From positions 1-30,063 of IMG/VR virus record IMGVR_UViG_3300042502_000108: 30,063 nt of DNA; one strand, written 5' to 3'. The position numbers and the translations under genes were made by a program. Shown piece by piece: positions 20,876-30,063 of the stretch. The notes under the pieces are model-generated. The model saw only the letters and a list, made by a program, of their open reading frames with translations, was not told where the DNA came from and searched no databases. How positions within the stretch are numbered: position 1 is the first letter of the stretch; every line of letters starts with the position of its first letter. This DNA comes from a virus.

Positions 20876-20903
20876 TTGACATATCATTGTGATATGCTGT
20901 AAA
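20876..20903 (+). promoter_or_regulatory. Early-operon promoter with palindromic operator
   Basis: A perfect TTGACA (20876-20881) is followed after 16 bases by TGTAAA (20898-20903). Alternatively TG-A-TATGCT (20890-20898) is an extended -10 like the others here. The perfect inverted repeat CATATCATTGTGATATG (20880-20896, 7-base arms, 3-base centre) fills the spacer. AAAGGAG follows before ATG 20922. This looks like a regulated promoter for the replication genes. Confidence 0.6.
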
Positions 20904-20921
20904 GAACCCAAAGGAGTCCTT

Positions 20922-22088
20922 ATGAAAGTTTGTGCAGGTGAAGGTTGTGGAATAGAGTTTGAACCACAAACAGCGAATCATAAATACGCTGACAAATTGT
21001 GTCGTCAATCAATTGATATTAATGGTTTATGTAAACATAGAAGGGATAATGGATTGTTTGATACGCAACCAGACCCATTGACTGGATCAATTCCATCCAA
21101 TGATAGTGAATTGAGGCTTTCCTATAATAAGCTTCTTAGTGAATACACAAAGTTGAAAACAAAGAGTGATGATTTAGCTGGTGCTATCTATCGTGCTGTA
21201 AAAGAAGATATTGAAACAATTAAGTATGTACCAGTGAACAAGCCAAAGTTTGATAGAAAAACTAAGGGCGAAGAAGTCGCTGTTGCAGTTCTAGCAGACT
21301 GGCAACTTGCCAAGGTCACTCCTGATTATAATTCTAAAGTTTGTGAAGAGCGTATTGAGCTTTTTGCTGAGAAGGTAATTCAACTTACCGAAATCCAAAG
21401 AAAAGATCACCCTGTTAAGGAACTTAGAATTTGGGCTTTGGGAGATATTATTGAAGGTGAGTTGATTTTCCCAGGTCAATCATTCTTAGTTGATGGTGGT
21501 TTGTATAGACAAATCACTGTTGATGGTCCACGCATCATGAAGAATTTTATTAACAAGATGTTGGAAAACTTTGAGAAAGTAACATTTGTTGGTGTTATTG
21601 GTAATCATGGTTCTATTGGTGGTCGTGCAAGACGAGACCATGACCCTGAAACTAATGGTGACAGAATGCTTTATCGTATCACTCAATTAATGTTTGAAAA
21701 AGAAAAGCGTGTTGAGTTTAAAATTCCTGATGGTCGTGGTGAAAGACATTGGTATGCCGTTGACACAATTGGTAACTATAAAGCAATGCTTTGTCATGGT
21801 GATCAATTCGGTAGCCTTTCTGCCTTCCATTCGTTCCAGAAGAAAGCTTATGGTTGGAAGATTGGGGCTTTGGATGAAGACTTTGATGATATCTTCATTG
21901 GTCACTTTCATACTCCTACCAAGATGACATTCAATACTGTTCAGTTAAGAATTTCAGGGAGCCCAGAGTCAGTTAATACATATGCTGCAGAAGTTCTTGC
22001 TGCTGCTGGCAGACCATCTCAGTCACTGTATTTTGTACACCCTGAGAATGGTATTGTTACAGCCGAGTATAACTGCTGGTTAAACTAA
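20922..22088 (+). CDS. Calcineurin-like metallophosphoesterase
   Basis: 388 residues. The five metal-binding motifs of the superfamily are in order: D126 in LADWQ, D175 in LGDIIEG, N228-H229 in GNHG, H292 in LCHGDQ, and H328/H330 in GHFHTPT. The first motif is D-W-Q where D-x-H is usual. The N-terminal 40 residues resemble a zinc finger with C4, C9 and C27 but not a full set of ligands. Enzymes of this kind hydrolyse phosphodiesters in nucleic acids or small molecules; the substrate is unknown, though first position in a replication operon suggests nucleic acid. Start: ATG 20922 with AAAGGAG five bases upstream; a GTG at 20889 lies within the promoter and was rejected. Confidence 0.8.
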   Translation: MKVCAGEGCGIEFEPQTANHKYADKLCRQSIDINGLCKHRRDNGLFDTQPDPLTGSIPSNDSELRLSYNKLLSEYTKLKTKSDDLAGAIYRAVKEDIETIKYVPVNKPKFDRKTKGEEVAVAVLADWQLAKVTPDYNSKVCEERIELFAEKVIQLTEIQRKDHPVKELRIWALGDIIEGELIFPGQSFLVDGGLYRQITVDGPRIMKNFINKMLENFEKVTFVGVIGNHGSIGGRARRDHDPETNGDRMLYRITQLMFEKEKRVEFKIPDGRGERHWYAVDTIGNYKAMLCHGDQFGSLSAFHSFQKKAYGWKIGALDEDFDDIFIGHFHTPTKMTFNTVQLRISGSPESVNTYAAEVLAAAGRPSQSLYFVHPENGIVTAEYNCWLN

Positions 22089-22721: not shown

Positions 22722-22934
22722 ATGACAACAGAAAAAGAAAAAGGCACAGAGATTTGGGCTTCACTAGGTATTACTAAGAATCTTGGTAATTATGAATCCT
22801 TAAGGCTTGACGCAGGCGCACGAACGCAGGCATCAGACCCTAACGACCCTGAAGCATGGGCAAAGGTCTGGGCTTCAATTGATTCCCAGATTGAAGCTAA
22901 GTTGCAAGAACTAGATAATGAAAGCCCAAAGTGA
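22722..22934 (+). CDS. Small conserved phage protein of unknown function
   Basis: 70 residues, acidic. The core ITKNLGNYESLRLDAGA followed by a helical W-A-K-V-W-A-S-I-D-S-Q-I-E-A-K-L segment resembles a small early protein found in many actinophages and other phages near replication genes. Its role is not known. GAGGA lies about six bases before ATG 22722, and seven bases separate it from the MerR-like stop. The WhiB-like gene starts inside its last 17 bases. No cysteine, membrane or nucleotide-binding motif is present. Confidence 0.6.
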   Translation: MTTEKEKGTEIWASLGITKNLGNYESLRLDAGARTQASDPNDPEAWAKVWASIDSQIEAKLQELDNESPK

Positions 22935-23217
22935 TTGGCGAGTAATTGCAGTTTGTGCAAATGATGAAAAGCCAATTGCTTGGCTATCGTATGATATTGA
23001 AGATGTACAATACGCCAAGCATGGCTGTTCACAATGTAAAGTAAGAGTAGAATGTTTCTTAAATGCATGGGAAAATAAACCATATGTCGGAGTTAATGCA
23101 GGGATATCAGAGTATGATTTCCTAATGCTTACTTGGAAGGAGTCAAAGAAGTCTAATGGAACTAACTGGTCTAGAACTAATAAAATTCTTCAAGGAATCT
23201 TGCAAGAAGTCAAATAA
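22918..23217 (+). CDS. WhiB-like iron-sulphur regulator
   Basis: 99 residues. Four cysteines, C13, C37, C40 and C46, give C-x23-C-x2-C-x5-C, the WhiB cluster-binding pattern, with W7 ahead of the first cysteine and the helix KHGCSQCKVRVECFLNAW. These proteins bind a [4Fe-4S] cluster, contact the primary sigma factor and alter transcription; phage versions can block host WhiB function. The G-[VI]-W-G-G turn that follows in the family reads GVNAG here (58-62), so the tryptophan is missing. The usual basic DNA-binding tail is weak (KESKKSNGTNWSRTNK). The family marks an actinobacterial host. The gene overlaps the previous one by 17 bases; no strong ribosome site is seen, so coupling is likely. 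Confidence 0.82.
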   Translation: MKAQSDWRVIAVCANDEKPIAWLSYDIEDVQYAKHGCSQCKVRVECFLNAWENKPYVGVNAGISEYDFLMLTWKESKKSNGTNWSRTNKILQGILQEVK

Positions 23218-23461
23218 GCTCTTTATTCCAGATTCCCCAAGAGAGGAATCTGTTGCAGACGCATTGGCTGAATTTTATAAAAAAGAAGAATTGTTTAATG
23301 CGGTACAATTATTTATAAAATCAAAGACTGGACCATTCTTGATATTTGATTTTGCGATAGAATCAAGAGCGTATGTTGATAAAACAAAATTTGAATCTAA
23401 GTCCGTCAACGCTTTTAAAGAAATAGTAGAACAAACCAAAAAGAGAATGGAATCTGAATGA
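23156..23461 (+). CDS. Hypothetical early protein, possible helicase loader
   Basis: 101 residues, mostly helical and charged. It begins MELTGLELIKFFKESCKKSN, an N-terminus (GLELIKFF) shared by small phage proteins encoded just before DnaB-type helicases. No Walker motif is present, so it is not a DnaC-type ATPase. It could be an ATP-independent helicase loader or adaptor; this rests only on position. Its first 62 bases overlap the WhiB-like gene, a long overlap. AAGGAG sits about 13 bases upstream, rather far, so the start is not certain. Its stop overlaps the helicase start in ATGA, giving tight coupling. Confidence 0.5.
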   Translation: MELTGLELIKFFKESCKKSNKLFIPDSPREESVADALAEFYKKEELFNAVQLFIKSKTGPFLIFDFAIESRAYVDKTKFESKSVNAFKEIVEQTKKRMESE

Positions 23462-24675
23462 ACTATGAGATTAGATTACTTAACTGCATTATTGATCAAG
23501 ATGGTTACGCTGAGGCAGTAAACGCAGGTGCAGAGAATGTGTTTGTTGAGTACCGTGATATTTGGAACTTTGTCATCAGTCACTTTGATGAGCATAAAAA
23601 GGTTCCGTCTAAGGACACTGTAAAGCATCATCACCCAGACTTTGAGTTTGTCGCTACGCCTGAGCCTTTGAAGTATTATCTTGATGATGCAAAACGAGAA
23701 TCATTATCATATCAAACAAGAACTATTGTTTCTAAAGCTCATTCAATACTTGGGGAGCTCGGTCCGAAAGAGTCGCTGTCTTTTCTTATGGAAGAAACAT
23801 CTCGTCTTTATAAGTTCTCCAGTAGTCTTAAAGATACAGACTTGGCTGGTGACTGGAAAGAAAGAGCTGACAGCCTAAGGGAGAGGGCTCTGCGTGGTGG
23901 TGATGAACTACAAGGTGTACCAAGTGGTATTCATGTAATTGATAAAACATTTGGTGGTTGGCAACCTGGAGACTTTATTGTTCTTCTTGGTTGGACTGGT
24001 GTTGGCAAGTCATTCATTGCAAGATTGTTTGCAGTTAATGCTTGGAAGGCAGGGTACAGACCATTAATTATTTCACTTGAAATGAATAAGATGCAGGAAG
24101 GTCAAAGACTAGACACTTTGCTAAACAATGGCGAAGGTAACTTTACCAATAGCGATCTAGTACGAGCCAACCCTGCTATCGTAGATAAATATGAAAAGTG
24201 GGCAGAGGCTACTTTCACTGGTAAGCATGCTATCCATCTTGTAACATCAGAGGGTCTTGAAACAGCAGATCAAAACATGGTGCAAGCTAAGATTGACCAG
24301 TATCATCCCGATATGGTAATTCTTGATTATCATGGGTTGTTTGATGATTCTAGTGGTGCTAAAACTGAAACAGAAAAGGCTAAGAACCTTTCTAAAGCTT
24401 TTAAGCGCATGGCTGTAAAGAACAATATCCCTATCATAGATGTTGCAGCAGTTACAATGGCTGAGGGGCACTCTGAGAGACCACCTGAGTTAGAAGAGGT
24501 TGCATGGAGTAAGCAGTTAGCTTATGACGCTGACCTTGTGCTGGCTATCCATCGTGAGCCTTCGTCAGATGTGTTTCAGGTTGTGTCACGCAAAGTTAGA
24601 AGAGCTGGACATTTTGGGTTTTACCTTAGATGGAATCTAGAGACTGGGAAATGGGCAGAAGAATGGGACATTTAA
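23458..24675 (+). CDS. dnaB: Replicative DNA helicase (DnaB-type)
   Basis: 405 residues. It unwinds the replication fork. An N-terminal helical domain (about 1-110) precedes a RecA-type motor that opens with GVPSGIHVIDKTFGGWQPGD. Walker A is GWTGVGKS at 178-185, with K184 and S185. The PLIISLEMNK segment fits motif H1a of DnaB/Sak4-type RecA folds. Walker B is MVILDYH with D290. An arginine-rich stretch near the end (VSRKVRRAGHFGFYLRW) fits the DNA-binding or arginine-finger region. The protein is shorter than bacterial DnaB (about 470), as usual in phages. ATG 23458 overlaps the preceding stop by four bases (ATGA), and primase follows downstream. Confidence 0.85.
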   Translation: MNYEIRLLNCIIDQDGYAEAVNAGAENVFVEYRDIWNFVISHFDEHKKVPSKDTVKHHHPDFEFVATPEPLKYYLDDAKRESLSYQTRTIVSKAHSILGELGPKESLSFLMEETSRLYKFSSSLKDTDLAGDWKERADSLRERALRGGDELQGVPSGIHVIDKTFGGWQPGDFIVLLGWTGVGKSFIARLFAVNAWKAGYRPLIISLEMNKMQEGQRLDTLLNNGEGNFTNSDLVRANPAIVDKYEKWAEATFTGKHAIHLVTSEGLETADQNMVQAKIDQYHPDMVILDYHGLFDDSSGAKTETEKAKNLSKAFKRMAVKNNIPIIDVAAVTMAEGHSERPPELEEVAWSKQLAYDADLVLAIHREPSSDVFQVVSRKVRRAGHFGFYLRWNLETGKWAEEWDI

Positions 24676-24860
24676 TTGATGCTAAGATATCGGGTACTGC
24701 ACAAGATATAGAAACCATTGCGAAGCTAAGACCTTGGATGGAAGATGAAGCAAGGGCTAAGTACGGCTTTACAGGAAAGACGAAGTTGATTACTGACTAT
24801 GATAAAGAAACCAACATATTTTCATTCTCAATCGTTTTTGATGATGAACTTAGAAACTGA
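24630..24860 (+). CDS. Small hypothetical protein between helicase and primase
   Basis: 76 residues, no recognised family. Visible: a helical ETIAKLRPWMEDEARAKYGF segment and a beta C-terminus (KLITDYDKETNIFSFSIVF). The start is uncertain: ATG 24630 overlaps the helicase by 46 bases, and in-frame ATGs at 24651 and 24663 would reduce the overlap to 25 or 13 bases. None has a strong Shine-Dalgarno. It also overlaps the primase start. Its place between helicase and primase suggests a replisome accessory role, by context only. Confidence 0.5.
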   Translation: MESRDWEMGRRMGHLIDAKISGTAQDIETIAKLRPWMEDEARAKYGFTGKTKLITDYDKETNIFSFSIVFDDELRN

Positions 24861-25743
24861 AATTAAAGATCTTCTTCAGAAATTCGGTATTCATGTTCAT
24901 ACTGAGTCGGGTAATGAAATTACATTCTATTGTCCGTTTCATAAAAACAGAAATACACCTTCGTTCTACCTGAATAAAAAGACTGGGCTGTGGCAATGCT
25001 TTAACCCTTCTTGTGGTGAAAAGGGTAACTTTAAAAAACTATACCGACAGATAACAGGTAAGTCCTATGGTCGTGAAGTAAAGCTTGACCCTTCGGCATT
25101 GCGGAATGAACTTGATCGTGCTTTCAGACCGATTGTTCCAGAAAAAGAAATTACTTTAGACAGCATTGCTCTTGATTATGATAGCGACAATATTAAGCAA
25201 GTGTTGTTACCATTTGTAGAGCGTGGTCTTTCACTGGATACATTGTCACATTTTGAAGTAGGTTTTTCTACAGGTAAGAATAGGATTGTTATTCCAGTAA
25301 GAAATCCGCAATATAAGGTTGTTGGGTTAATTGGTAGAGCTATCAGTAATGACCAAGAGCCAAGATATCTTTACAATACGGGGTTCAAGAGAGCCATAGT
25401 ATTGTTCAATATACAGAATGCCAAGAACTACAGTGATGTTATAATAGTAGAAGGAAGTGTTGACGCAATGAAAGTGCATGAGGCTGGATACCCCAATGTT
25501 GTTGCATCACTAGGAGCCCAAGTTTCACCTCAACAAGTCACAATGCTAAAAAAGTACTTTGACAGAATAATTATATTTTCTGACAATGATGACGCAGGAA
25601 GGGCTATGAAAGGTGCTATAATAAAATCTTGCTGTGGTAAAGAACTGTACGCAGCACAGATTCCCGAGGGTTATAAAGATCCTGGGGAAATGGATATACA
25701 ACAAATAAAAGACAGTATCACAAACAAACAATTAATCATATAG
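24841..25743 (+). CDS. dnaG: DNA primase (DnaG-type)
   Basis: About 300 residues. It makes RNA primers for replication. The N-terminal zinc ribbon is C31-x2-H34 (YCPFHKN) and C53-x4-C58 (CFNPSCGEKG), the CHCC pattern of DnaG. A fold around VGFSTGKNRIVIPVRN and VVGLIGRAIS corresponds to the RNA-polymerase domain entry. The Toprim domain has the catalytic E204 in VEGSVDAM and the metal-binding D248-N-D250-D251 in FSDNDDAGRAM. It lacks the C-terminal helicase-interaction domain of bacterial DnaG, common in phages. Start: ATG 24841 (or 24844) places the zinc ribbon at the usual distance; an in-frame ATG at 24799 would add 14 residues. Confidence 0.85.
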   Translation: MMNLETEIKDLLQKFGIHVHTESGNEITFYCPFHKNRNTPSFYLNKKTGLWQCFNPSCGEKGNFKKLYRQITGKSYGREVKLDPSALRNELDRAFRPIVPEKEITLDSIALDYDSDNIKQVLLPFVERGLSLDTLSHFEVGFSTGKNRIVIPVRNPQYKVVGLIGRAISNDQEPRYLYNTGFKRAIVLFNIQNAKNYSDVIIVEGSVDAMKVHEAGYPNVVASLGAQVSPQQVTMLKKYFDRIIIFSDNDDAGRAMKGAIIKSCCGKELYAAQIPEGYKDPGEMDIQQIKDSITNKQLII

Positions 25744-25751
25744 GAGACAAT

Positions 25752-26399
25752 ATGTCATTTACATCAATCAAAACATTAAAAGACCTTGAAAAAGCAGTTA
25801 TTCCTGCGCAGGGTACAGGGAAAGGAGTTAAGAAATACTTTACTCTTCAATCAGGAGATTCTTTCAAGATTCGGTTTCGCCAAGAGCTGACTGAAGATGC
25901 AAGTAATTATAATGAAGAGATCGGTACAGGTATTTCAGTACCAGTTGTTACATCGCCAGTTAACTGGAAGTGGAGAGTAGCCTCTACTGCTTCATTTGAG
26001 AAGTTTAACTATCGTTGTTGGGCAACTGAGCAATCAGTTACAGATAAGGCTTGGAAGCCTAAGCCGCACTTGCTAATCAACATTGTAGTAGAAGTAGAGC
26101 CAGGAGTTTGGGAACCACGAATTCTTGATACTACATTTAATCAACGACATGTTGGTTTAACTTTGATTGAATACGCTAAAGAGTTTGGCACTATCACAGA
26201 CCGTGAGTATAAGTATTCACGAACTGGTTCGTCAGCATCTGACACAAACTATAGCCTAATTCCTTTGAATGTTTCTGAAATGCCAAAGGCAGTTAAAGAA
26301 TTGCCGATGCATGATTTGGAAAGTGTTTACATGACACTCTCTTATGAGAAGCAACAAATATTCCTCACTACTGGAGAGCTTAACAAAGACTCTTGGTGA
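25752..26399 (+). CDS. Candidate single-stranded DNA-binding protein
   Basis: 215 residues. The segment NWKWRVASTASFEKFNYRCW, the beta-rich centre (HLLINIVVEVEPGVWEPRILDTT) and the position after primase suggest an OB-fold ssDNA-binding protein, as replication operons of many phages carry one here. Aromatic and basic residues are common, fitting nucleic-acid binding. However, the C-terminus (ELNKDSW) is not the acidic tail of typical SSBs and no zinc motif is present, so this is a candidate call. Start: ATG 25752 with AGGAGA five bases upstream, eight bases after the primase stop. A strong hairpin follows at 26412-26433, perhaps limiting read-through so that this abundant protein is favoured over downstream genes. 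Confidence 0.5.
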   Translation: MSFTSIKTLKDLEKAVIPAQGTGKGVKKYFTLQSGDSFKIRFRQELTEDASNYNEEIGTGISVPVVTSPVNWKWRVASTASFEKFNYRCWATEQSVTDKAWKPKPHLLINIVVEVEPGVWEPRILDTTFNQRHVGLTLIEYAKEFGTITDREYKYSRTGSSASDTNYSLIPLNVSEMPKAVKELPMHDLESVYMTLSYEKQQIFLTTGELNKDSW

Positions 26400-26450: not shown

Positions 26451-26975
26451 ATGAAAAATAATTCTATTGTTTTAGACCTTGATGGTGTTATTGCCGACAT
26501 AGACACAGCCGTTTCTGACTACCTACATTATGTTTGTGGGGTACAGGAAGATTATTCAAGTTGGTTTACTACCGATACAAAAGATAAAGAAGCTTTAAAG
26601 TTATTTTCAAATGAACTGTTTTGGAAGAATCTTAAACCATTTGAAGATGCTTGGTATCAGGTCAATAAATGGTTTTCTGATGGCATTGATGTGCATATAG
26701 TAACTGCAAGAAGAACTGAAGCGTCTGTCAGATCCGTAGAGCCTTGGCTGGATGCTTGGCGTATAAATACATTAAGACCTAAGTTTGCTAAGATGCATTC
26801 TAAGCATGAAATTATTTCTGAAATCAACCCAATATTTGTGGTTGAGGATAATCCTAATGAAGTAATTTCATTAAGAGATAATGGAATCAACTGTTACTTG
26901 CGCAAGGCATGGTACAATGAGCAGTTCTGGAATGATTTACCTTGTATTGATTCACTTTACGAACTGGAGATTTAA
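26451..26975 (+). CDS. 5'(3')-deoxyribonucleotidase (HAD family, NT5C-like)
   Basis: 174 residues. HAD motifs are clear: D9-L-D11-G-V near the start (nucleophile D9, acid/base D11), T85 in IVTARR, and E132-D133 in VVEDNPNE. Together with the size and a small helical cap (about residues 25-60, rich in W, F and K), this fits 5'(3')-deoxyribonucleotidases, which remove phosphate from deoxynucleoside monophosphates. In a replication operon it probably adjusts nucleotide pools or removes unwanted dNMPs. AAGGG lies about five bases before ATG 26451. It follows the GNRA hairpin, so it may be less expressed than the upstream genes. The polymerase GTG comes directly after its stop. Confidence 0.78.
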   Translation: MKNNSIVLDLDGVIADIDTAVSDYLHYVCGVQEDYSSWFTTDTKDKEALKLFSNELFWKNLKPFEDAWYQVNKWFSDGIDVHIVTARRTEASVRSVEPWLDAWRINTLRPKFAKMHSKHEIISEINPIFVVEDNPNEVISLRDNGINCYLRKAWYNEQFWNDLPCIDSLYELEI

Positions 26976-29900
26976 GTGACAGAGTTTGTTCACCTTCATT
27001 GCCATAGCGAGCACTCGCTACTGGATGGAATGTCTACGCCTGAAGAGATCGCACAGATTTCTAGCACGAATGGGCAATTTGCAGCAGCACTTACAGATCA
27101 CGGAACGATGGCAGGTGTTCTTCGCTTCCAGGATGCATGTAAAAAGCATGCAGTGCGACCTGTATTCGGCATTGAAGCGTATTTTGTACCTTCTGTTAAA
27201 GATGATGGTGATGGTAAGCATGAGCGTTTCCATTTAATTCTTCTTGCAAAAAATGATGTTGGTCTAAAAAAGCTTTTCAAGCTATCGCAAATATCATGGC
27301 AAGACAATTTTTACTATAAGCCTAGAATTGATTTTGATTTGCTAGAGAGTATGGTGGATGATGATATTATTTCATTGTCGGGCTGTAGAGGAAGTTCTAT
27401 TGCTAAAGCGATTGAGGCTGGCAATACTGGTCGTGCAGAGATGCTGGCAGATAGATTTACTAAAATATTTAAAGATGATTTCTATTTTGAGTTGCAAGCG
27501 TGGAACCCTAAAGAGATTAATGATGGGCTATTAGATTTGTCTAAAGCTTTTAATAAAAAGGCTGTAGCAACTGCTGACTGCCATTTCCCAACACACGCTG
27601 ATAAAGCTTGTGAAGAGGTCTTGCTTCTTATTTCGCAGTATCCTAGTCTTGGTGCTTCTATCACTAATCTTGCTAAAGAGAACGCTACTACGCTTCATAA
27701 GTGTGGTAATGACCTTCTTGAGAAAGTAAACCATCTTTACCCTGAAAGAAGTTTACGCTTTGATGATATTAATCCATATGTTGCAAACGCAGAGACTGTT
27801 CTGTCGTGGTTTAAAGATGCTGGTTATGATAGACCTGACATTCTTGAAAACACAATTGAAGTAGCCAGTAAATGCAGTGCTGAGATTACCAAGCGTAGAA
27901 ACCTGCTTCCTAAATATTTGAAGTCATTGAATTCAGATGAGTACCTACGAGAGATGACTGAGTTTAGATTAAAAGAACTTGACTTGGGCGAAGAGTACAA
28001 GGTAAGACTTGAAGAAGAACTTGGGATTATTAAACAGCTTGGCTTTGCTGACTATTTCCTTATTGTTTGGGATCTTACATCTTGGGCTGATGCTAATAAT
28101 GTAGGTCGTGGAACTGGTAGAGGTTCTGTAGGTGGAAGCTTGCTTGCTTTCCTGCTAGATATTTCTAAGGTTGACCCGATTAAATATAATTTACTATTCG
28201 CTCGCTTTATCAATCCCGAGCGTAACGACTATCCAGATATTGACTTGGACTTTGAGGACAAGAGAAGAAACGAAGTCAAAGAGTATCTTAGAAATAGATG
28301 GGGTAAAGACCATGTTGCTGCAATCACTACTTATGGTACATTCAAACCTAAGTCAGTAGTGAAAGATGTTGCTAGAGTATTGCAAGTATCTTACGAAGAG
28401 ACTAATAACATCACTCCGTTCTTTGAGACAATTGAAGAATTAACTGAATCACCTAAGGGAAAGATTTTCTGTAACAAGTATCCTGATGTACCTAAGTTGG
28501 CTAAGAGGCTTGAAGGTAGAATTAGGAATGTTGGTATCCATGCTGCAGGTATGGTTGTGTCATCTGTTCCATTGAACGAAGTTTGCCCTATTGAAACAAG
28601 AAAAGAAACTGACGGTGGGGAGCGAACAACGGTTACTGCATTTGACATGACTGATGCAGAGGCTGTTGGGCTGATTAAAATAGATATTCTTGGTCTAAAG
28701 ACCGTATCTGTGATTAAAGATTGCTTAGCGAAGATTACAGAGCGTTTGGGAGTGGATGTAGAGGCTCAATCACTGGCTCTAGATGACCCTGCTGTATTTG
28801 AAAACTTTAATAAAGGTAATACGGTTGGGGTTTTCCAAACCGATGCAGCAGCTTATCGTAATCTAATTGAAAGAATGGGTATTGATAACTTTAGTGACCT
28901 TGTAGTGAGTAACGCTCTGGTAAGACCAGGAGCCTTGTTATCGCAAGGTCAGAAATATATTGATTGTAAGAAGGGTTTCACTCAGCCTTATTACCCTGAT
29001 AAGTCTGTTGAAGAAATATTAAAAGAAACATACGGTACTGTTATCTTCCAAGAGCAATTAATGCAAATGTCTGTATTAATTTCAGGGTTTACTTGGTCAG
29101 ATGCAGACAAGCTAAGAAAGATTATCGGAAAGAAAAGAGACATTAGTGAATTTAAAGATTTTAAAGATAAGTTTGTTAATAATGCAATCATTCCAAAAGC
29201 AGAGGCGAGGAAAATGTGGGCTGAGTTTGAAATGTCAGCTCTATATATGTTCAATAAATCTCATGCTGTAGCCTATTCAATGCTGTCTTACCAGACCATG
29301 TGGTTAAAGGTTAATTACCCTCTAGAATTCATCTGGTCATTACTATATAATGAAGATTCTACTGAAAAAATCACTGCGTATCTTATGGAAGCCCAGCGTC
29401 TAGGAATTGCAATTCTTCCTCCAGATGTAAACTATTCCGAAGAATACTTTACAACTGACAGCCGAACAGGGCTTGATGCTATTAGGTTTGGTTTAACGAA
29501 TGTCGCTGGCTGTGGCGCTTCTGCAATTAAGGAAATTTTGACTAAGAGACCATTCACTTGCTTAGATGAGTTTAATAATAAGTGTTCTAAGTCTGCTGTT
29601 AAAGCTCCTCTTCGCCTTAATCTTGAAAAAGTCGGGGCGTATGTTTCTATGAACCATATTTCTCAATACGAGCATGAGCGCTACTACCTCCCAGTTCTTG
29701 GTTTTTCTATTAAATCAGGTGAAGAGAATAACGAGATGGATGAGTTTGTTGGGAACCTTTCTGAGTTCCATGAAATAAATTCTCCATTGACGCTTATTAA
29801 AGCAATTGTGCGATCAACGAAAAAGACTCCGCAATACCTAAGAATTGAATTTGAAGACTTCTCGGGTTCAGCTACTGTATTCGCTGACAGGAATACTGAA

Positions 29901-30063
29901 ATGGCGAACAGGGATTATGTATATGCTTTAATTGGTGATAGAACATTGCACTCATTCTGTGATGCATATAATTTTATTGATACTGATTTGCACAAGTTTA
30001 TTACGCTCAGACAAAAGGGTGACAACCATGAATACAATTGGTTGCACGAAACTGGGCTGGGTT
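26976..30063 (+). CDS. dnaE: DNA polymerase III alpha subunit, DnaE-type (3' end outside window)
   Basis: At least 1029 residues, open to the window edge. It copies the phage genome. The PHP domain (about 1-280) opens with FVHLHCHSEHSLLDG and keeps all nine expected metal ligands: H8, H10, D17, H42, E67, H86, C137, D201 and H203. The catalytic palm has D423 and D425 in PDIDLDF and D570 in KIDILGLKT. GRGTGRGSVGGSLL (near 375-390) and the fingers region with GVFQTDAAAYR follow. An OB-like domain lies near 930-1000. Start: GTG 26976 follows the nucleotidase stop immediately and has GGAG seven bases upstream; there is no better ATG. It is distinct from the T7- or phi29-type polymerases of many phages. 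Confidence 0.92.
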   Translation, partial: MTEFVHLHCHSEHSLLDGMSTPEEIAQISSTNGQFAAALTDHGTMAGVLRFQDACKKHAVRPVFGIEAYFVPSVKDDGDGKHERFHLILLAKNDVGLKKLFKLSQISWQDNFYYKPRIDFDLLESMVDDDIISLSGCRGSSIAKAIEAGNTGRAEMLADRFTKIFKDDFYFELQAWNPKEINDGLLDLSKAFNKKAVATADCHFPTHADKACEEVLLLISQYPSLGASITNLAKENATTLHKCGNDLLEKVNHLYPERSLRFDDINPYVANAETVLSWFKDAGYDRPDILENTIEVASKCSAEITKRRNLLPKYLKSLNSDEYLREMTEFRLKELDLGEEYKVRLEEELGIIKQLGFADYFLIVWDLTSWADANNVGRGTGRGSVGGSLLAFLLDISKVDPIKYNLLFARFINPERNDYPDIDLDFEDKRRNEVKEYLRNRWGKDHVAAITTYGTFKPKSVVKDVARVLQVSYEETNNITPFFETIEELTESPKGKIFCNKYPDVPKLAKRLEGRIRNVGIHAAGMVVSSVPLNEVCPIETRKETDGGERTTVTAFDMTDAEAVGLIKIDILGLKTVSVIKDCLAKITERLGVDVEAQSLALDDPAVFENFNKGNTVGVFQTDAAAYRNLIERMGIDNFSDLVVSNALVRPGALLSQGQKYIDCKKGFTQPYYPDKSVEEILKETYGTVIFQEQLMQMSVLISGFTWSDADKLRKIIGKKRDISEFKDFKDKFVNNAIIPKAEARKMWAEFEMSALYMFNKSHAVAYSMLSYQTMWLKVNYPLEFIWSLLYNEDSTEKITAYLMEAQRLGIAILPPDVNYSEEYFTTDSRTGLDAIRFGLTNVAGCGASAIKEILTKRPFTCLDEFNNKCSKSAVKAPLRLNLEKVGAYVSMNHISQYEHERYYLPVLGFSIKSGEENNEMDEFVGNLSEFHEINSPLTLIKAIVRSTKKTPQYLRIEFEDFSGSATVFADRNTEMANRDYVYALIGDRTLHSFCDAYNFIDTDLHKFITLRQKGDNHEYNWLHETGLG

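Follow-up and report, generated by a model that had tools for sequence, protein, structure and literature searches.

A complete PHP metal site in a phage DnaE-type polymerase, and the distribution of PHP sites and epsilon genes among phage C-family polymerases

The DnaE1 polymerase of Mycobacterium tuberculosis possesses a trinuclear zinc site with nine ligands, two of which, D23 and D226, are needed for its exonuclease, as described in PMC5636811. A 2026 survey of bacterial polymerases defined the signature of an "active" PHP domain as HHDHEH[C/H]DH (PMC12926913); in the passages covered here, phages come up only in connection with other matters. C-family polymerases are known from phages, "only a handful" according to Timinskas and co-workers (PMC3919608), a source that also raises, for bacteria, the question of whether editing by PHP and by epsilon is mutually exclusive. 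Many phage records are already annotated as encoding a DnaE-like polymerase. We saw neither proofreading by the PHP domain of a phage polymerase nor a PHP/epsilon split among phages described in the literature covered, outside which lies the likeliest place, Kazlauskas and Venclovas 2011. DnaE polymerases and PHP proofreading are already known, and what is new here is the comparison of PHP and epsilon across phages.

The sequence that we analyzed, hereafter the window, comes from IMG/VR and comprises the 30,063 bases of a virus record with a GC content of 37-43%, in which tail genes are followed by a replication block; at 30 kb, it is a fragment of its genome. The genes relevant to this work are the following.

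20889-22088, + strand: match to phrog_284 "exonuclease" (2.5e-45), with metallophosphoesterase-like motifs
22918-23217: WhiB-like regulator gene, adjoining the replication block
23458-24675, + strand: DnaB-like replicative helicase (profile matches)
24799-25743, + strand: DnaG-type primase (profile matches)
25752-26399, + strand: single-strand DNA binding protein (phrog_9721, 1.4e-23)
26451-26975, + strand: HAD-type phosphatase abutting the 5' side of dnaE (phrog_415, 2e-13; HAD/5'-nucleotidase Pfam matches below cut-off)
26966-26969, + strand: GGAG, likely ribosome-binding site, 6 bases 5' of the GTG and within the end of the upstream gene
26976-30063, + strand: dnaE-like DNA polymerase III alpha gene, GTG start, open at the window end (Pfam matches)
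28236-28244, + strand: polymerase catalytic D421 and D423 (PDIDLDF), aligned to M. tuberculosis D421 and D423
28683-28685, + strand: third catalytic aspartate, D570, aligned to M. tuberculosis D587

The nearest named relatives of the polymerase are the DnaE-like alpha proteins of Stanwilliamsviridae (Streptomyces phages Bmoc, Circinus, and Enygma), which are about 37-40% identical to it over 96-98% of its 1029 residues and have all nine PHP ligands. The gene order of Bmoc (HNH, metallophosphoesterase, HTH, helicase, primase, SSB, dnaE) also resembles that of the window, and the position equivalent to the phrog_284 gene is annotated there as a metallophosphoesterase. The Stanwilliamsviridae polymerases nevertheless form a separate clade, Bmoc lacks the HAD phosphatase that directly precedes dnaE in the window, and Circinus differs in having an extra DnaQ-like gene. 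Judging from their matches, the HAD-type protein is predicted not to be an exonuclease and the phrog_284 protein not to be of the DnaQ type. The WhiB-like gene, together with the kinship to Streptomyces phages, suggests that the host of this low-GC phage is probably an actinobacterium.

The reading frame from 26976 to 30062 comprises 1029 amino acids with no stop before the window end; the whole gene encodes 1132 amino acids in contig L001, which is near-identical (100% identity by the search, with one residue differing between the printed translations). Its matches to PHP (residues 6-174), DNA_pol3_alpha, DNA_pol3_finger, and HHH_6 exceed the Pfam cut-offs, and TIGR00594 scores 762.8 bits versus a cut-off of 434. 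By these profiles, the frame is assigned to the C-family, DnaE-type polymerases; the three catalytic aspartates are invariant in two DnaE alignments. The NCBIfam equivalog cut-off for bacterial DnaE1 is not reached (best score 784 of 1002 bits, on the incomplete window protein). Full-length Bmoc also fails in this comparison (762), and full-length phage Indigo passes (1397).

The GTG is the first codon directly after the in-frame stop of the upstream gene, and the equivalent position in 55 relatives is occupied by GTG in 30 and by ATG in 25. The abutting stop, the GGAG, and these relatives back the GTG start given in the preliminary description. Its statement that ATG-only calling would miss the gene needs amending, since such calling shortens it instead, to a start at M19 (27030) that leaves out H8, H10, and D17.

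The N-terminal part of the protein contains the metal site, whose elements were located by alignment.

26976-27635, + strand: PHP domain (residues 1-220), predicted 3'-5' exonuclease (Pfam, alignment; model pLDDT mostly 89-97)
26997-27026, + strand: PHP ligands H8 (26997-26999), H10 (27003-27005), and D17 (27024-27026)
27099-27101, + strand: PHP ligand H42
27174-27176, + strand: PHP ligand E67
27231-27233, + strand: PHP ligand H86
27384-27386, + strand: PHP ligand C137
27576-27584, + strand: PHP ligands D201 (27576-27578) and H203 (27582-27584)

All nine residues align with the nine zinc ligands of M. tuberculosis DnaE1, the residues matching D23 and D226 among them, and with Thermus DnaE, and the resulting motif equals the active PHP signature. 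The site is complete in 56 of 57 close viral relatives; the remaining one, L038, begins at residue 56 and keeps all five ligands that it covers. Across 14 phage DnaE proteins, with identities to the first down to 27%, residues 1-220 contain 14 invariant columns, nine of which are the ligands (the probability that nine preset positions would fall among the invariant columns by chance is 7e-13). The presence of the full set of ligands, as initially described, is thus confirmed by the alignments and by its conservation in relatives.

An AlphaFold2 model, which carries no metals, has a mean pLDDT of 86.7, and its best structural match is M. tuberculosis DnaE1 (7PU7, E 1.7e-64; 5LEW, TM 0.84 by target length). 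In the full-length model the C-terminal part past residue 935 is strand-rich; the window protein ends at residue 1029. The M. tuberculosis enzyme shares with the window polymerase the nine PHP ligands and the polymerase aspartates, but in the window protein E67 and H86 are joined by a short PHP loop, which in M. tuberculosis has 29 residues (PMC5636811), and the two are not close by descent. Thermus aquaticus DnaE1 (2HPI) has the nine ligands and an FYxKPRID stretch in the PHP domain in common with the window but belongs to the bacterial DnaE1 clade.

The descent of the polymerase was analyzed in a careful tree based on the polymerase core only, with 13 bacterial DnaE1 rows including E. coli, M. 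tuberculosis, and Thermus; DnaE1 was the only bacterial type in our trees. The window clade and the Stanwilliamsviridae type (support of 100/100 for each) are sisters (100/99 for the pair) and stand apart from all 13 bacterial rows, and the AU test rejects a grouping of the window clade with Actinomycetota DnaE1 (p 6.7e-45). The window polymerase belongs to an old phage lineage. The closeness to actinobacterial DnaE1 that the preliminary description had implied is contradicted by both results, which also reject a recent capture of a host DnaE1 by the window clade. The Likavirus DnaE (Indigo, TagePhighter; L069, L070), represented by Indigo alone in the core tree, does group with Actinomycetota DnaE1, and by this placement and Indigo's equivalog score it is likely a recent capture from a host.

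The gene itself is ordinary for phages. A tblastn search matched 1362 of 50,697 phage records, all at less than 60% identity, and 820 of the matches cover at least 80% of the query. To characterize the metal site, we inspected the nine positions in first 25 and later 30 named phages, as well as in the viral loci obtained by five scans. The PHP site was readable in 260 viral loci, a count that includes repeat visits to some contigs; of these, 219 have the nine ligands intact and 41 do not. Clustering leaves 195 loci at 98% identity (169 intact, 26 lost) and 89 at 70% (78 and 11). Nearly all sampled lineages keep the complete site. Loci in which the PHP region was missing or mostly missing (L038, L053, L054, L056, L057, L059, L060, L062, L063, L186, L187, L216, L301, L320, L322, L324, L325, and L334) had been dropped before this count; L266, which does not show the nine ligands, was scored as lost, although it is poorly aligned there. 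In bacterial DnaE loci, the nine ligands are present in 77 of 80, these being the best-scoring 80 of 591 and no guide to DnaE1 at large.

Phages that have lost the site include Pbunavirus and related phages (PaP1, Spe5P4, WFH, and XcP1), which resemble the window in having a C-family polymerase of the wider phage clade but differ from it in the loss of PHP ligands and in an epsilon gene that overlaps the start of dnaE. An epsilon profile found an epsilon gene upstream of dnaE and on the same strand in all 41 PHP-lost loci, and in none of the sampled flanks of the 219 PHP-intact loci; the profile derives from four such proteins, all belonging to the PHP-lost clade, and other DnaQ types may escape it. 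The gap between the two genes, measured to the tblastn start of DnaE and not to the annotated start, is below about 0.2 kb in 38 of the 41; the wide gaps are 221 bases in L259, 391 in L260, and 2148 in L335, where the epsilon gene is the best-scoring frame, 2.1 kb upstream.

Whole records searched with PF00929 gave a similar picture, with matches above the cut-off in 38 of 39 PHP-lost records versus 3 of 135 PHP-intact ones. In the 39th PHP-lost record, the match is below the cut-off and the gene is cut at the contig end. Set by set, the PHP-lost records with a match were 2/2, 14/15, 2/2, and 20/20 (the 39 are the sum of 2, 15, 2, and 20; phage XcP1 is counted twice, as L279 and L373, and L334, dropped from the 41, is included). 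The corresponding values for PHP-intact records were 2/23, 1/35, 0/3, 0/30, and 0/26, in addition to 0/20 close relatives, 18 of which enter the 135 together with the 23, 35, 3, 30, and 26, because L054 and L056 have no PHP region. The three exceptions are Circinus, Gemini, and the record of L217, in which dnaE and the DnaQ-like gene are separated by about 6 kb or more; since these have both, a second exonuclease can accompany an intact PHP site, contrary to a strict either-or rule. The Circinus gene (L067 record, 61068-61520; PF00929 4.8e-10, also phrog_192) is about 6 kb after a dnaE with an intact PHP site, making Circinus possibly a phage with two candidate proofreaders. PF00929 matches below the cut-off were seen in two intact records, those of Bmoc and of the 595 kb phage LR756511 (5.3e-5); the weak match in Bmoc was rejected as an epsilon, being the phrog_2259 "RNase H" protein.

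In the core tree, the PHP-lost phages form one clade (100/100), which does not join E. coli DnaE1; its neighbors are phages of Gordonia, Corynebacterium, Mycobacterium, and Streptomyces with an intact PHP (99/96). The E. coli enzyme falls among the bacteria, and a loss of the phage PHP site through capture of a proteobacterial DnaE1 is rejected. Forcing E. coli DnaE1 together with the PHP-lost phages costs 167.7 log-likelihood units (AU p 1.7e-27, a value that is only a guide because the group was picked in view of the initial trees). There is a single change of PHP state on a tree of 75 rows, from which the long-branched AM4, pCD1602_4, and GMA6, all with intact PHP, were omitted, as they were, with other rows, from the core tree; many independent losses in phages were not found. 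With a single switch, the correlation between PHP and epsilon within phages amounts to one comparison, not many. Proteobacterial DnaE1 and the PHP-lost phage clade lost the site independently and are both associated with epsilon, which gives two comparisons, not dozens.

As for a second exonuclease near the window polymerase, the preliminary description had seen no separate epsilon-type gene in the window, and we agree, as PF00929, phrog_192, phrog_2259, and PF01612 all gave no match there. Searches beyond the window also found none: PF00929 exceeds its cut-off in 0 of 20 records of close relatives, three of them 106.6-108.8 kb long, phrog_192 and the RNase H-like phrog_2259 match none of 23 viral records (22 besides the window), and PF01612 has no match in 19 records that include the window. 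The window is a fragment, and because the relatives' records may be incomplete, the absence of a DnaQ-type gene is no proof.

Taken together, we consider it likely that the window encodes a replicative DnaE that polymerizes and edits in one chain, with the zinc PHP site as the proofreader. The phage's own replicative polymerase would be this C-family DnaE of an old phage lineage, the core of which would copy DNA, while the N-terminal PHP domain would bind three zinc ions via the nine residues and cut mispaired 3' ends. As in M. tuberculosis DnaE1 (PMC5636811), such an end would leave the polymerase site and be cut at the PHP zinc site. With polymerase and proofreader in one chain, the phage could do without encoding an epsilon subunit. 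A search of 17 records revealed no gene for a sliding clamp, and hence the host clamp is probably borrowed. Zinc binding, exonuclease activity, the proofreading role, and the use of a host clamp are what we infer from the sequences. The earlier proposal that the polymerase carries its own proofreading therefore stands in part: the complete site, the absence of DnaQ-type matches from the window and from 20 relatives' records, and the nearly exclusive PHP-or-epsilon pattern speak for it, while Circinus, of the sister family, combines an intact PHP with a DnaQ-like gene, and a host epsilon could be recruited.

Other readings of the same data have to be weighed. The PHP metal site might be kept for structure or for another phosphoesterase activity, such as pyrophosphate hydrolysis, with no proofreading. 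Both have precedents in E. coli DnaE, for whose PHP domain a structural role (PMC3666897) and a coupling of pyrophosphatase activity to replication (PMC4822814) have been reported. However, five of the nine ligands are gone from E. coli DnaE1 (PMC5636811), a purely structural role does not demand them all, and the epsilon gene found by dnaE in PHP-lost phages fits the loss of an exonuclease; we regard this explanation as rather unlikely. Unlikely, too, is proofreading in trans by a host epsilon/DnaQ or by an undetected phage exonuclease, with PHP as a helper at most. A second proofreader has been reported for mycobacteria (according to a reference title in PMC12926913), Circinus has its DnaQ-like gene despite an intact PHP, the window is a fragment, and the relative L006 encodes a Cas4-like exonuclease, but the window-clade records searched have no match to DnaQ, phrog_192, phrog_2259, or PF01612.

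It is very improbable that the window DnaE is an error-prone, DnaE2-like accessory polymerase without proofreading. It does share the DnaE core and scores with the NCBIfam error-prone model, though far below the cut-off (469.6 of 939 bits), but the disrupted PHP site that is a trait of DnaE2 is absent, with nine of nine ligands kept, whereas DnaE2 and DnaE3 mostly lack these ligands (PMC3919608; PMC12926913). In addition, the gene sits in a replication block with helicase, primase, and SSB. A role of the phrog_284 nuclease as the proofreader, like the Mre11-like subunit of archaeal PolD, which offers a precedent (PMC10721889), is scarcely credible. Its motifs and its "exonuclease" match would suit such a function, but the gene is not part of the block that runs from the helicase to dnaE, being separated from dnaE by nearly 5 kb, and no link of this nuclease to C-family polymerases was found in the literature searched.

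The PHP-or-epsilon comparison supports, short of proof, the intact phage PHP domain as a proofreader. On balance, we lean towards the broader view that C-family replicases of phages generally proofread with their own PHP domain, and that on one occasion within this viral lineage, separately from proteobacterial DnaE1, the PHP metal site was abandoned as a DnaQ-type gene became fixed beside dnaE. With over a thousand matching phage records, PHP proofreading would mean that many phages use a zinc-dependent editor, unlike the DEDD type of A- and B-family polymerases. The lineage without the PHP site would then allow the mutual exclusivity of PHP and epsilon editing to be examined in a clean comparison. 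If the single switch from PHP to epsilon is true, phages would provide a natural series for the swap of a proofreader, including the separate PHP gene of DannyDe.

In this Microbacterium phage (L077, 1495-2532 and 2543-4846), DnaE is split into two genes, both annotated as DnaE-like: a PHP part of 345 amino acids with all nine ligands, so that the PHP domain is a separate subunit, and a polymerase part of 767 amino acids. Mycobacterium phage Cuke (L074, 1477-3282 and 3279-4712) has its DnaE in two overlapping genes, split inside the polymerase part. The DnaE frames of L320 and L324 end 42 and 59 residues from the chosen start, though the search matched most of the protein, and represent either a further split gene or a sequence error. 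In L006, dnaE is followed by the Cas4-like exonuclease gene and a RecA-like gene, and three glycosyltransferase-like genes and a cytidylyltransferase (L006, 13399-16729 and 20761-21825) are found among the replication and recombination genes 3' of dnaE.
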